Below are positions 21,879 through 29,042 of a DNA stretch of 30,062 bases, piece after piece. The translations under genes were made by a program, and so were the position numbers. Numbering within the stretch: position 1 is the stretch's first letter; each line of letters starts with the position of its first letter. Location of the stretch: positions 1 through 30,062 of IMG/VR virus record IMGVR_UViG_3300025319_000079; one strand, written 5' to 3'. The stretch comes from a virus. The notes under the pieces are model-generated. The model ran no database searches, was not told the DNA's origin, and worked only from the letters and a program-made list of their open reading frames with translations.

Positions 21879-22364
21879 TCACGTGGAGGCAGTCTCTTCT
21901 TCAATGACTGCTATCTCTCTGAGGGTAGCTATCGCTGCGTCGAGAGAAGTCAGGAGAGGGATGCCATAGCGAACACAGACGATCTCCACGTTACCCCTGC
22001 GCCAGAATCCTTCAGGACAACAGACGACCAAGTGCTTGCTTCGGTGTGCGTGGAGACCGAGCTCGAGTAATGAGATGGGAGACATTGTTCTCGGGGAGAG
22101 ATAGAGGAGGATATAGCTGCAAGCCTCCAAGTACTTCAACTCCCACTCTACCTGCTCACGGAACTGTGGGTTGTTGATGGATTGCTCCCACGAAGAGTCC
22201 CAGTCATCCCTGCGAGGATTGAGCACGTGGAAGCCTGCTTTCTCTAAGACGCGGCCGCACTCTGCCTGCCAATCCTCAGCGGCGCCCATCTCGATGCTGC
22301 CGGCCAAGAATACTGATGTTGACTCGAACTGATCCAGTTCTTGGGGTGCCTTGGTGATTGTCAT
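21879..22364 (-). CDS. Nucleoside 2-deoxyribosyltransferase-like protein
   Basis: The 161-residue product matches the Nuc_deoxyri_tr2-type fold. Motifs are 'VFLAGSIEMGAAEDW' (residues 18-32, nucleotide-binding loop), 'VLNPRRDDWDSSW' (47-59), a helix 'REQVEWELKYLEA' and 'SPISLLELGLHA' (95-106), where the Glu of 'LELG' is the expected nucleophile. 'CCPEGFWRRGNVEIV' follows. Relatives exchange or remove bases from deoxynucleosides or nucleotides; phage versions may act on nucleotide pools. It overlaps the exonuclease gene by four bases and precedes the macro-domain gene. The substrate cannot be told from sequence. Confidence 0.8.
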   Translation of the reverse strand: MTITKAPQELDQFESTSVFLAGSIEMGAAEDWQAECGRVLEKAGFHVLNPRRDDWDSSWEQSINNPQFREQVEWELKYLEACSYILLYLSPRTMSPISLLELGLHAHRSKHLVVCCPEGFWRRGNVEIVCVRYGIPLLTSLDAAIATLREIAVIEEETAST

Positions 22365-22780
22365 GGCCGCTCTCCTTCTAGCAAACGCTCGAATGCCTCA
22401 ACGTTGCCCATTGCGTCGTTGACTGGGTTATGGTCGTGTGGGGTTACCCTAAGTGACTTCCACTCCTGCGTCTTGTAGAAGTCTCCGACCAGCCCAGCAT
22501 AGAAGTCGGAGATGCGACGAGCGGAGTGTCCAAAAGGGTTGTAGCCAAGATGCTTGTGGAAAGCGTAATTGATTCCCTGCCAATCATACGCAGGATTGTC
22601 GGAGACGAATATCGGTCGTCCGGGGAATTGCTGCAACCAGTCAACAAAAGCCTTGAAGGTGTCATGACTATCATTTTCACCATAGAAGGTCTTCCGTGTT
22701 TTGAATTCAACAGCACCGAACTCTCGCATCCGTCCTGCTAAGACATCGATGCCTTCGCAATCTACAAAAATGAGACTTAT
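22361..22780 (-). CDS. DEDDh-type 3'-5' exo(ribo)nuclease, start codon apparently ATA
   Basis: The enzyme trims RNA or DNA ends with two metal ions. Motif I 'LIFVDCEG' (D7, E9) lies upstream of the first ATG (22729), so the active protein must start earlier. The frame runs back to ATA 22780, which overlaps the TAA of the HNH gene; AGGGA lies just before. Motif II is 'VSDNPAYDWQGIN' and motif III 'HDHNPVNDAMGN'. From ATA it is 139 residues; from ATG it is 122 and lacks the metal-binding D-x-E. It appears to be the remainder of a gene invaded by the HNH element, since the HNH product starts with a second copy of motif I. It may be active, read through from the HNH gene, or dead. Confidence 0.72.
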   Translation of the reverse strand: MSLIFVDCEGIDVLAGRMREFGAVEFKTRKTFYGENDSHDTFKAFVDWLQQFPGRPIFVSDNPAYDWQGINYAFHKHLGYNPFGHSARRISDFYAGLVGDFYKTQEWKSLRVTPHDHNPVNDAMGNVEAFERLLEGERP

Positions 22781-23238
22781 CGCTTCCCTGCGACCTTCCT
22801 ACTCCGGACGTGCTTGGCCCGGCAAGTTCTACACTGCCTGAATCCCTTGGGGGTACGATAGGTGTTTCTAGGTGAATATGGATGGCCGCTTGGGCAAGAG
22901 GTCTTGGCAGCGTGTGCTGCCGTGATAGTCTTTCCCCGCAAGAGGTTAATTCTGCAGGTTACTGCCTCAAGGTGTTGGGGGCGAACACAAGCACGATTGC
23001 GGCAGAGATGATCTAGTTGGTGTCCAGCCGGAATCGGCCCGTAAACTTGCTCATAGGACCACCGATGCCCTAGGACAGGCCGACCGTTGATGTTGATTTC
23101 GGCGTACCCCGCTCCGGTGATGGCACCTAGCCAAAGCCAACAGTCACCTGACTTGTCCACCTTCTCCCAGAATCGTTCTTCAACCGAGCGGCCGGGGGCA
23201 GGACCGTGCCCTTCGCAGTCTACGAAGATCAGCGTCAT
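22777..23238 (-). CDS. HNH homing-type endonuclease fused to the exonuclease N-terminus
   Basis: ATG 23238 overlaps the stop of the DHH gene (ATGA). Residues 1-16 (MTLIFVDCEGHGPAPG) are not part of the HNH family; they match the start of the downstream exonuclease including its motif I. From residue 18 (SVEERFWEKVDKSGDCWLWL) it is a standard HNH_3-like enzyme: 'GHRWSYEQVYGPIPAGHQLD' then 'HLCRNRACVRPQHLEAVT', with H77 and H89 in the active site. A C-terminal zinc finger follows ('SCPSGHPYS...CRTCRAKH'). Total 153 residues. Such enzymes cut intron-less or intron-containing alleles to spread. No intron is apparent; the insertion lies inside a coding frame. Confidence 0.82.
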   Translation of the reverse strand: MTLIFVDCEGHGPAPGRSVEERFWEKVDKSGDCWLWLGAITGAGYAEININGRPVLGHRWSYEQVYGPIPAGHQLDHLCRNRACVRPQHLEAVTCRINLLRGKTITAAHAAKTSCPSGHPYSPRNTYRTPKGFRQCRTCRAKHVRSRKVAGKR

Positions 23239-24094: not shown

Positions 24095-24322
24095 CTACTC
24101 CAAGAGATATGCGAGCTCGCTTGGGATCTCTGACCCCAGTTCCTTCGCCGCGGCCAAGGTTTCCTTTAGGGCATCCTCAATGTTTGCAAGAGCCTCTTCG
24201 AAGGTCTCTCCCTGCGACACGCAGGATGGATAGAGGGGAACGCTAGCGACGTAGCCACCCTCCTCGGCCCGCTCGAATTCATACTCGATACCAGCTTGGA
24301 TCACCCTTAACTTCTTTGTCAT
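24095..24322 (-). CDS. HicB-like protein without a visible HicA partner
   Basis: The 75-residue product has the HicB/UPF0150 fold: strands 'YEFERAEEGGYVASVPLYP', then 'CVSQGETFEEALANIEDALK' forming the typical helix after 'S-x-G-x-T'. Full HicB antitoxins pair with a HicA mRNA interferase carrying a catalytic His, and often have an extra DNA-binding domain; neither is visible here. So it may be a solitary regulator or an anti-toxin that protects the phage from a host HicA. Its stop lies three bases before the DHH start. Confidence 0.78.
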   Translation of the reverse strand: MTKKLRVIQAGIEYEFERAEEGGYVASVPLYPSCVSQGETFEEALANIEDALKETLAAAKELGSEIPSELAYLLE

Positions 24323-25373: not shown

Positions 25374-26186
25374 CTAACCTCTCTTGTAGCTGGCGACCTT
25401 CCTGATCGAAGCCACCCTCTCCTTCCCCATTCCATATACCTTTAGCAGCTTCTTCCCTCCGTTCTCAAATACGTCCTGCAGGACCTCCCATGTTGACATC
25501 TCATTGAGTATGGTGCCGGCTATCTCCTCTCCGATCTTTGGGAACATCAGGGCCCGTAGTGCTGCCAGCTCGGTGTCATCCATGGAGAAGAGCGGCCGGC
25601 GAGTGTCCACCGACCACGTTGCCTTGTGGTCCTGCTTCTCGAAGTAGTGGACATAGCTCGCTACTCTATGCATGAGCAGTTGATTGTCAGGGACAGAGTC
25701 GACCAGAAGCCCGGGCAGATCCTGCGGCAGAGAGAGATGCAGCCAGTTCATGAAGCCATCGTAGAGAACCCGGTGCTGATCCCAACCGTACGTGTCGCAG
25801 AATCCGTCCTTGGTTACTGATAGCTTCCCACCAAAGCAGAAGATCGGTATGTCGTAGCTGTCGTAGAGCCCGCGTAGCTGACGTTGGAGCTCCTTTGTCT
25901 TGAAGCGAGCCAGCATCTCCGGAACCTTCTTCACCTCCACTCCTACAGTGAAGCCGTGCGTCCTTGATTGCCAGCAGTAATCCCCAAAGTCGAGCTCCGG
26001 GTAGGCCTGTGCTTGCTCGTAGAGGACTTCGAAGCCTCTTGCCTCAAGCTCCGCAATGCGCTCCGGGGGTTCTCGCCAATCAGCTACGACTGTTGGTAGC
26101 TTACTGTCGGCCGCAGTAGGGCCATGGTCCCCAGCTCGTTCCGCCCCGGGAGAGTAGGTAAGCAGCCCTCGCGTTCTCCCTGTCAT
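25374..26186 (-). CDS. ERCC4 (XPF)-type nuclease with C-terminal HhH region
   Basis: The enzyme probably cuts branched or flap DNA. The nuclease domain starts near residue 31: 'TVVADWREPPERI' (D36), 'LDFGDYCW' (D69) and 'VGVEVKKVPEML' (E84, K86) match the ERCC4 'GD...ERK' core with a conservative E-V-K-K. Residues about 215-270 ('FPKIGEEIAGTIL', 'LKVYGMGKERVASIRKV') look like helix-hairpin-helix DNA-binding elements. The only ATG/GTG/TTG start is ATG 26186, which lies 86 bases inside the upstream lysozyme gene and has no ribosome site; the first 30 residues may not be real. Partner of the ATPase and resolvase in recombination. Confidence 0.8.
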   Translation of the reverse strand: MTGRTRGLLTYSPGAERAGDHGPTAADSKLPTVVADWREPPERIAELEARGFEVLYEQAQAYPELDFGDYCWQSRTHGFTVGVEVKKVPEMLARFKTKELQRQLRGLYDSYDIPIFCFGGKLSVTKDGFCDTYGWDQHRVLYDGFMNWLHLSLPQDLPGLLVDSVPDNQLLMHRVASYVHYFEKQDHKATWSVDTRRPLFSMDDTELAALRALMFPKIGEEIAGTILNEMSTWEVLQDVFENGGKKLLKVYGMGKERVASIRKVASYKRG

Positions 26187-26730
26187 CGTACAGGTTCGTG
26201 TTGGCTGGCAGGGAGTGACCCAAGTGTCCTGTCCAGATTTGGAACAGACCGACGAACTTGCGTCCTTCGTGATACGCCGAGGGATTCTGACCGAAGGTGG
26301 ACTCGCACTCTGCTACTCGCTTCGCTTTGTCAGCTGTGGCGCCGAAGACTTCTTCGATGATTGCGGCGACGACTGCACGGCTGTTCCTGTCTCCAATAGT
26401 AGGCTTGGATCCCGCAGGCTCGTACTCGTTGTAGCCAGCCACAGCTTCCGCTGTAAGTGGATTGGGAGCAGGCGTAGGAGTTGGTGTGGGAGTAGGTGTC
26501 TGGCGAGGCGGACGAGGACGGAGGCTTTCTGCCAGCTGACGTCGGAGCGACAGGTCCGGCAGAAACTCCAAGTCCAGAGAGGCAGGTACCAGACTCTCTT
26601 GGACGACTGTGGATGGCTGCAGCTCATGTTGTTCCTCACTATGAAGACCACTGCCCAGCAAGCCTCCTAGAAGGCTGGCTAGAATGATGAACAGGTGTGA
26701 AGCTAGTTTCCTAGCTGTTCTGTTCCTAAT
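26101..26730 (-). CDS. SLT-like lysozyme/transglycosylase with signal-like N-terminus
   Basis: The product probably cleaves glycan strands of peptidoglycan. The C-terminal domain has 'AKRVAECESTFGQNPSAYHE' (E in 'CEST' as likely catalytic acid) and 'FVGLFQIWTGHLG', the G-L-F-Q-I motif of transglycosylases, ending 'RGGTSWGPWPYCGRQ'. A Pro/Thr linker (PTPTPTPTPAP) separates it from the N-terminus. The first TTG is 26661, but the frame upstream encodes a perfect signal or membrane anchor: 'RNRTARKLASHLFIILASLL' then 'GGLLGSG'. It extends to ATT 26730, after an in-frame TAG. So ATT, CTG or a sequencing error may hide the start. Downstream of a strong promoter. Confidence 0.75.
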   Translation of the reverse strand: MRNRTARKLASHLFIILASLLGGLLGSGLHSEEQHELQPSTVVQESLVPASLDLEFLPDLSLRRQLAESLRPRPPRQTPTPTPTPTPAPNPLTAEAVAGYNEYEPAGSKPTIGDRNSRAVVAAIIEEVFGATADKAKRVAECESTFGQNPSAYHEGRKFVGLFQIWTGHLGHSLPANTNLYDDRENARAAYLLSRGGTSWGPWPYCGRQ

Positions 26731-26975: not shown

Positions 26976-27159
26976 ACAACAAAGGTGCCAGCTGCTCTTT
27001 CAACTCGCGAATGGTGTCCTCCAGTGAATCTACTCTTCGGTTGATGGCTTCCAGTGCGCTGTCGGCATCGCTTGGGTTGTCTCGGCGGTGTGTAGGGAGC
27101 TGAGGGGGCAGGGAATGTCCGGGGTGTGATTCTTTCTTCCCTTGGCGCTCAGCCATCAT
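26968..27159 (-). CDS. Small coiled-coil protein (62-63 residues)
   Basis: The start is one of two tandem ATG codons overlapping the stop of the ATPase gene. The first 30 residues are basic and Pro-rich ('HPGHSLPPQLPTHRRD'); the rest is a heptad-like helix 'ALEAINRRVDSLEDTIRELK' ending LAPLLSK. It may bind the ATPase or serve as an oligomerisation factor. The gene end forms part of the long inverted repeat. No family recognised. Confidence 0.62.
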   Translation of the reverse strand: MMAERQGKKESHPGHSLPPQLPTHRRDNPSDADSALEAINRRVDSLEDTIRELKEQLAPLLSK

Positions 27160-29042
27160 CCTATCCTATCCACGAGATCATCAAAGGTGGCGTTGATCAT
27201 CTCTTCGCCCGTCAGTTCAGCATTAAGGCCGCAGTCTTCAATCCTGAGCGTGTAGGTAGGAAGTCCGGCTTTGGGCTGCTTCTTGGCCTGCAATCGGATG
27301 ACCACATCGGCCGCCCTACTAACCAGCTTGTCCCCCTGTGCCTTCTGCCCTGTTATCTGTCCCTCGGCACCGTAGAGATCCGTGTCGTGGTGGATGAAGA
27401 TGACATTACGTCCGGAGTCGCGGGCAGAGGATAGCAGGCGCCTGAAGAAGTCGTTGCGCATCGTGTACTGTATCCAAGGTTGATTGGCAGGTGCTTTCTT
27501 TTGAAGTACATGGCCGGCGATGTTGAACACCAAAGTTCCAGTGTCGATCACCGCAGTTCCGCCCGGAGGTAGGCCGTACTTCTCTACTAAGGTGTTATCC
27601 ACCATCTCGAACCAATCTGTCTCGAACTGGTCGAGGATCTCCCTAGCGTTTTCGATGTCCTCTGCCTTCAGACCTCCCTTGTTGTCTTTTGACTTGATCC
27701 GGCCGACATAGTCGGTCACGACAATCAAGCCACCAGCATGCCGCTCAGCAAATGAAGGGACGATGGGAATACTATCGCTGGAGGCCAGCATGCTCTTCTC
27801 GACTCTATCGTAGCCGCGGTCGAAGTTGTAGAGATAGACCGGGGTGGGAGCTGTCATGCCCCAGCGCGTCTTGCCGGAGTTGTGTACCAAAATGTTGTTG
27901 GCGATGAAGGAGTGGCCCTCGGGAACACTGAGGTCGTATGTGGGTTGTCTTAGAGTCTCCTCGCGCTTGGAGATAATGGGATCCCAAAGGATGTCTCCCA
28001 TCCCCTCTCTGTGGAGGCCAGAGGGTCTCTTTATCCTACTGGTATATGTTTTTAGATTTGTTACAAGCTCGTTTAGCCTCCTGTTCTTCTCTCCTAGTAG
28101 ACCTATCTCCTCGGCAAAGATCTGGATTGCTTGCCGGTTGGTGGTTATCACTGTCCAGTATTGTTGCGGTCTGCCCATCACCCTTCTCGGGTAGAGTCTG
28201 GTAGCAATTCCGTAACGGAGCAGGAGGTGTTGGACATCTAGTGCTAACCTCTTAGAGGCCGAAGAGTAGCCCAACTCCAAGCTGGTTACACGACCATCGT
28301 CCTCGTTACGGAAAGAGATCCACCCATCGCAGGTTATGAGTCGATTAAGGAACAGTGAGAGCAGCTTCTTGCTCAGTCTGAATATCGATGGCGAGACGTA
28401 CTTCTCCGGAGAGCGGTGGTGCAAGATCTGCTCGTGCTTTAGCCAGTCTTGTAGGGGGTTCGGCCTTCCGCGAGCCACGGTAGCGGCCAAGGTAACAGTC
28501 TTCCCTCTTCTGGCTCTCAACACAGCTCTTCTACCTTGAAGTTCCTCCGCTGCGGTACTGAACCTATCCAACACAATTGGATCTGCGTTTGTGAAAGCCA
28601 GATGGGGCATATATCCATCACCGAGCAGGAAGGCAACCAGCTCGACCAGAGGTTCGGGCAGTTCATCTGTACCAAAGAATGGGATGGTAGCAGCAACAGC
28701 GATCTTGTCGCCTACCCGTAGCTCTCGCAGCTCCTGCCAGCCTCGACTTTTCTCGAGAACAGGGTGATTAGCTGTGGCTGTCAATTCGTGACCGAGCTGG
28801 GTACGGATAGTGTAGACCTGCTTTAGACCGTTGGTGTAGATGTGTTCAGCGTCTGTAGCTTGCAGCTTGACAGTGTCCAAAGATGCTACGACCGGAGGCG
28901 CTAGCAGATCGCTTACCGGCCTGTAGGCTCCTGTATGGGCATCCAGTATTCGGGTACTCGGAGCTAAGCACTTCTCTCTACCCCAAACTTCGATGATGTA
29001 GTAGGGGCTTCTTTCGCGCTGATTGACCGGCTTGAATGGCAT
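27156..29042 (-). CDS. RecA-fold ATPase (Sak4/AAA_24 type) interrupted by an intein
   Basis: After splicing this would be a 264-residue phage recombination ATPase. The exteins are residues 1-24 and 389-628. Joined, they give Walker A 'GREKSGKT' (G21 to T392). Downstream are 'PVYLYNFDRG', Walker B-like 'GGTAVIDTGT', and a sensor strand 'NVIFIHHDTD', as in Sak4-like single-strand annealing or AAA_24 proteins that act with phage nucleases and SSB. ATG 29042 has a strong AGGAGAGAGGGA site. Without splicing the ATP site is split, so activity depends on the intein. It lies between the PD-(D/E)XK nuclease and the coiled-coil protein. Confidence 0.85.
   Translation of the reverse strand: MPFKPVNQRERSPYYIIEVWGREKCLAPSTRILDAHTGAYRPVSDLLAPPVVASLDTVKLQATDAEHIYTNGLKQVYTIRTQLGHELTATANHPVLEKSRGWQELRELRVGDKIAVAATIPFFGTDELPEPLVELVAFLLGDGYMPHLAFTNADPIVLDRFSTAAEELQGRRAVLRARRGKTVTLAATVARGRPNPLQDWLKHEQILHHRSPEKYVSPSIFRLSKKLLSLFLNRLITCDGWISFRNEDDGRVTSLELGYSSASKRLALDVQHLLLRYGIATRLYPRRVMGRPQQYWTVITTNRQAIQIFAEEIGLLGEKNRRLNELVTNLKTYTSRIKRPSGLHREGMGDILWDPIISKREETLRQPTYDLSVPEGHSFIANNILVHNSGKTRWGMTAPTPVYLYNFDRGYDRVEKSMLASSDSIPIVPSFAERHAGGLIVVTDYVGRIKSKDNKGGLKAEDIENAREILDQFETDWFEMVDNTLVEKYGLPPGGTAVIDTGTLVFNIAGHVLQKKAPANQPWIQYTMRNDFFRRLLSSARDSGRNVIFIHHDTDLYGAEGQITGQKAQGDKLVSRAADVVIRLQAKKQPKAGLPTYTLRIEDCGLNAELTGEEMINATFDDLVDRIG
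27879..28970 (-). mobile_element. LAGLIDADG intein inserted in the Walker A motif
   Basis: The intein is 364 residues, from C25 to N388 of the precursor. Splicing landmarks are complete: C25 as first residue, block B 'TATANHPVL' (T90/H93), C-terminal 'SFIANNILVHN' with H387 and N388, and Ser as the +1 residue. Two homing motifs are present, 'VELVAFLLGDGY' (acid D142) and 'LFLNRLITCDGW' (acid D239), so the endonuclease may be active. Lower GC than the DHH and HNH region. The site, inside the P-loop between Lys and Ser-Gly-Lys-Thr, is a common place for inteins in ATPases. Confidence 0.9.

Follow-up and report, generated by a model that had tools for sequence, protein, structure and literature searches.

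A predicted class 1 intein with a nested LAGLIDADG endonuclease in the P-loop of a Sak4-like phage ATPase

A gene for a putative recombination ATPase in the window (the whole 30,062-nt stretch of viral DNA analysed here, IMG/VR record IMGVR_UViG_3300025319_000079) carries 364 codons in the middle of its Walker A motif, raising the question of what these residues are and how an ATPase encoded in this way could come to bind ATP. From sequence comparison we conclude that the P-loop of this phage Sak4-like ATPase is almost certainly split by a complete intein with a nested LAGLIDADG endonuclease.

An intein in the Walker A motif and its empty-site counterpart

The precursor ORF (Table 1) is 1887 bp long, is open throughout and encodes three cysteines only. 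The insert of 1092 bp (364 codons) begins with C1 and ends with H363-N364, and is followed by Ser+1. Joining the exteins in silico gave a 264-aa product that carries the Walker A motif GREKSGKT and matches phrog_124, in agreement with the original prediction of a GREK to SGKT junction in a Sak4-like P-loop.

Table 1 Features of the split ATPase gene and of the HNH element in the window
Feature	Position	Strand	Size or basis
Precursor ORF, Sak4-like ATPase split by intein	27156..29042	(-)	628 aa
N-extein	28971..29042	(-)	24 aa; aligned with intein-free L003
Walker A first half, GREK (end of N-extein)	28971-28982	(-)	
Intein, class 1 type (Cys1 ... His-Asn, +1 Ser)	27879..28970	(-)	PF14890, TIGR01443, TIGR01445; ends set by the L003 empty site
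Intein block B, GHELTATANHPVLE (TxxH; TANH)	28752..28793	(-)	alignment with other inteins
First LAGLIDADG motif, LVELVAFLLGDGYM, with acidic residue	28608..28649	(-)	alignment with other inteins
Second LAGLIDADG motif, LLSLFLNRLITCDGWI, with acidic residue	28317..28364	(-)	PF14528 and alignment
Intein blocks F and G, TYDLSVPEGHSFIANN-ILVHN	27879..27941	(-)	TIGR01443 and alignment
C-extein	27156..27878	(-)	240 aa and stop; phrog_124, AAA_24
Walker A second half, SGKT (start of C-extein)	27867-27878	(-)	
Walker B-like GGTAVIDT in C-extein	27540-27563	(-)	by eye
HNH endonuclease ORF	22777..23238	(-)	PF13392 E 5.3e-14; phrog_826 E 2.2e-49
HNH gene, copied exonuclease 5′ end and diverged second copy	22361-23238	(-)	

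The intein signal is far above chance level. The insert matched the Intein_splicing family PF14890 with E 3.6e-19 and 69.5 bits (cut-off 35.8); its N-terminal region (block A, C1 LAPSTRILDA) scored 29.1 bits against the TIGR01445 cut-off of 24.5, its C-terminal region (ILVHN^S) scored 29.9 bits against the TIGR01443 cut-off of 15.6, and the best NCBIfam match (E 2e-57) was to the intein segment of DnaB PRK07773. Blocks A, B, C, D, E, H, F and G were all readable, and the residues that define a class 1 intein were found in full: Cys1, the TxxH of block B, the block F Asp (in YDLSVPEG, by alignment with other inteins), and His-Asn followed by Ser+1. The PF14528 (LAGLIDADG_3) match at residues 229-314 (E 2.2e-13, 50.7 bits, cut-off 22.5) takes in the region of the second LAGLIDADG motif only, the first being placed by alignment with other inteins; this alignment identified the helices FLLGDG and LITCDG, each with an acidic residue at its end. 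The block alignments thus bore out the earlier claim that the splicing residues and both LAGLIDADG motifs are intact, all of them being present at the expected positions. A structure model of the intein was of modest confidence (pLDDT 62) and retrieved intein-endonuclease structures as its top Foldseek matches (7qsu, E 7e-14) with low TM-score, and the sequence relatives of the intein in the PDB were intein splicing domains.

Comparison with intein-free Sak4 homologues had been proposed as a check, and one such homologue was found in the IMG/VR contig L003. It is 67-68% identical to the window protein over the full joined-extein length, and its Walker A motif, IIEVWGKEKSGKTR (GKEKSGKT), is uninterrupted. 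The DNA at the insertion site reads ...GGTAGAGAGAAG^TCCGGCAAGACG in the window and ...GGCAAAGAGAAG^AGTGGCAAGACA in L003, where the flanks join in frame without the insert. Together, this empty site and the above-cut-off matches to PF14890, TIGR01443 and TIGR01445 reproduce exactly the ends first proposed for the intein. The same comparison ruled out the reading of the 364 residues as a normal inserted domain of an ATPase subfamily: L003 lacks the insert and joins cleanly, the intein models match both ends of the insert with the correct splice residues, and no homologue appeared in which the 364 residues formed part of a normal domain, leaving that reading a vanishingly small probability.

The Sak4-like host protein and its predicted splicing

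The assignment of the extein as Sak4-like appears fair but distant. The window extein matched phrog_124 (Sak4-like ssDNA annealing protein) with E 3.2e-6 and 27.7 bits, and the L003 homologue with E 2e-8; we consider the assignment fair because the characterised HK620 Sak4 scored lower on this family (E 1.9e-5, 25.2 bits) than the window extein did. The C-extein also matched AAA_24 (E 1.9e-4, just under the Pfam gathering score), and the joined extein combines GREKSGKT with a Walker B-like GGTAVIDT, recognized by eye, as for a RecA core. A search of the PDB with the extein alignment returned chance matches only and no solved relative, and the structure model of the intein-free L003 homologue reached a pLDDT of only 43, too low for use. 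No relatives of the C-extein were found in named phages at E up to 1, none of the extein were confirmed in bacterial genomes by a scan that reaches close relatives only, and a profile search of viral contigs revealed no loci beyond the same two. The known exteins of this Sak4-like subfamily are two distinct ones, that of L003 and that shared by the window and a near-identical virus, IMGVR_UViG_3300025327_000039 (L002, G001). The gene order of the latter (helicase, Cas4-like exonuclease, Sak4-like ATPase) is similar to that of Pseudomonas phage 73, in which a helicase is followed by a Cas4-domain exonuclease, an SSB and Sak4.

The locus is very probably best explained by class 1 splicing that restores the Walker A motif. 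The gene would be translated as a 628-aa precursor with the intein lodged between Walker A residues 4 and 5 of the Sak4-like, putatively RecA-core ATPase; an acyl shift at Cys1, transfer to Ser+1, cyclisation of Asn364 and a final acyl shift would then remove the intein and join GREK to SGKT in a 264-aa ATPase. Until spliced, the precursor should not bind ATP because the 364 residues split its P-loop. The nested LAGLIDADG endonuclease may act on P-loop DNA that lacks the intein in related phages, such as an L003-like allele, and repair of the cut allele would then insert a copy of the intein. The sequence shows the anatomy of the gene, its family matches, the empty site and the identical intein in a near-identical virus; from these we infer that the intein splices in the cell, that ATP binding depends on this, and that the endonuclease is active and homes. 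In HK620 Sak4, ssDNA binding needs ATP (PMC5928155). In PA73 Sak4, a mutation of Walker A removed only a part of the recombineering activity and left much of it (PMC5928155), so phage function may depend on splicing strongly or only in part.

That some Sak4 activity outlasts Walker A mutation (PMC5928155) also speaks for a different reading, in which the intein is present but splices poorly or not at all, and either the ATPase gene has lost its function or the precursor works without ATP. We regard this reading as extremely unlikely, since the splicing residues are all intact and the frame is open, and since the near-identical virus, 99.4% identical to the window over the 8.9 kb compared, differs at 51 sites in that region and shows zero base changes across the entire 1887-bp Sak4 ORF, intein included. 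Decay would be expected of a dead gene, yet the ORF is unchanged between the two viruses.

Further homing-type elements in the recombination block

The near-identical virus G001 carries a second P-loop intein, of 345 aa (L007:12513-13547), in the Walker A motif of an SF2-type helicase. The helicase gene lies ~6 kb from the Sak4 gene, just beyond the window's end, and the window's contig stops before it. The helicase intein (APTGSGK^C...HN^SGIALG) sits between the K and S of Walker A and contains Hom_end_hint and LAGLIDADG_3 domains; the helicase homologue in the contig of the L003 virus (L008) is intein-free (APTGSGKTGIAIG). The Sak4 and helicase inteins share only about 23-24% identity and were therefore probably acquired independently. 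Upstream of the helicase gene in the near-identical virus, we also observed a low-complexity repeat encoding TYTYTIHIHILYIYIY (L007:13686-14048, (+) strand).

The original prediction had counted two independent homing systems in the block, the intein and an HNH element. The HNH element is real and belongs to an unrelated nuclease family; the count, however, comes to three homing-type elements in the recombination block of G001 (Sak4 intein, helicase intein and HNH ORF). The HNH ORF opens with 16 codons, MTLIFVDCEGHGPAPG, that represent the 5′ end of an exonuclease-like gene next to it; among intact relatives of that gene in other viral contigs, one example is MALIFVDCEGHGPAAG...EFGAVEYKTR. The remainder of the exonuclease-like gene, downstream of the HNH ORF, opens with a diverged second copy of this end, ISLIFVDCEGIDVLAGRMREFGAVEF, the start codon of which is GTG in L002 and GCG in the window. 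Because the HNH ORF is fused to one copy of the 5′ end and is followed by a second, diverged copy, it seems that the HNH gene was inserted into the exonuclease gene at its 5′ end, along with a repeat of that end. Rfam gave no match, even at a permissive threshold, and a group I or group II intron surrounding the HNH ORF was accordingly rejected.

Three further ORFs on the (-) strand of the window were recorded. The first (24095-24322, 75 aa) resembles a HicB-type antitoxin by eye; the second (25374-26186, 270 aa) weakly matches the Hef nuclease model NF010337 (E 2.8e-5) over the C-terminal portion of that nuclease; and the third (26101-26661, 186 aa), placed between the Hef-like nuclease and Sak4 genes, encodes a PTPTPT linker and then a lysozyme/transglycosylase-like domain by eye.

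An extension of the splicing explanation, which leaves the identity of the intein unaffected, would make the intein a conditional switch: splicing would be withheld until a signal such as ssDNA, so that annealing would be on only during phage replication. Such a role could be suggested by the P. horikoshii RadA intein, located in the P-loop of a RecA-family protein and stimulated to splice by ssDNA (PMC5790916), by the relatedness of the present extein to an ssDNA-annealing RecA-core protein, and by the presence of another P-loop intein within this block in the sister virus. We gave conditional splicing a low probability because no sequence feature points toward an ssDNA response; moreover, the intein retains an endonuclease, as an ordinary mobile element would, its relatives occur in unrelated proteins, and the three precursor cysteines leave little scope for a disulfide switch. 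That the two distantly related P-loop inteins jointly gate the recombination block, with ATP use by both enzymes awaiting splicing that responds to an infection signal (ssDNA, for example), is very unlikely. The near-identical virus with its two P-loop inteins in one block would offer a convenient pair for the question of whether such inteins are tolerated or act as switches.

P-loop inteins in Sak4-like and other hosts

The P-loop is a classic intein site, and about 70% of inteins sit in ATP-binding proteins (PMC5050341). We searched viral contigs for stretches that would translate as V-H-N-S-G-K-T, allowing Ser only as TCN, and obtained 114 VHN^SGKT stretches, about 99 of them with an intein-like C-terminal motif as judged by a simple pattern. 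Among 65 non-redundant C-exteins, Pfam identified terminases (13 and 12, with two models), ResIII (10), RecA (9), SNF2 (8), DnaB (2), AAA_24 (2) and others. The kind and site of the insertion are ordinary and belong to a recurrent pattern of P-loop inteins, Sak4-like hosts included. A literature search of partial coverage found no report of an intein in Sak4. In the present locus, a phage annealing recombinase has its P-loop cleanly interrupted by an intein and an empty-site partner is available for comparison, and Sak4-like ATPases emerge as a recurrent P-loop intein host in which three kinds of insertion were found.

Like the window, L294 (2408-4204), L295 (2345-4204) and L297 (1895-4126) carry LAGLIDADG inteins in the Walker A motif of Sak4-like proteins (phrog_124 E 9e-45, 8e-46 and 4e-43, respectively), with those of L294 and L295 being 34% identical to the window intein; their site, GK^S, is three residues further on. 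The Sak4-like protein of L114 (444-2234; phrog_124 E 5.5e-13), which is one of those picked up by the VHN^SGKT scan, is interrupted at the same residue as in the window (GDTG^SGKT), but by a 270-aa intein with an HNH nuclease. L114, L073 (5202-6929) and L066 (2655-4355) encode three P-loop ATPases that are related to one another and have an HNH-type intein at ^SGKT; L114 is clearly Sak4-like, L073 weakly AAA_24, and L066 is without a Pfam or PHROGs match.

Relatives of the window intein reach at most about 35% identity, and their hosts include DnaB, TerL, Sak4-like and other proteins. In a tree of 114 intein sequences the window intein lies near phage TerL inteins (support 0.76, weak) on a long branch, so that no intein donor can be named. 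Actinobacterial DnaB inteins (Euzebya, P-loop site; Nocardia, RESG^SLEQ) are also class 1 and of LAGLIDADG type, with 32-33% identity over ~350 residues; they differ in their replicative helicase host, their size of 425-477 aa and an extra sequence before block F that is missing in the window. The TerL inteins of Bacillus phage KLEB27-3 and of L109, L123 and L081 share the P-loop insertion, the latter three also the ^SGKT junction and the LAGLIDADG type, but reside in a terminase and show 24-30% intein identity. Finally, P. horikoshii RadA is a RecA-family ATPase that is likewise split in its P-loop, but by an ssDNA-responsive mini-intein without an endonuclease (PMC5790916).
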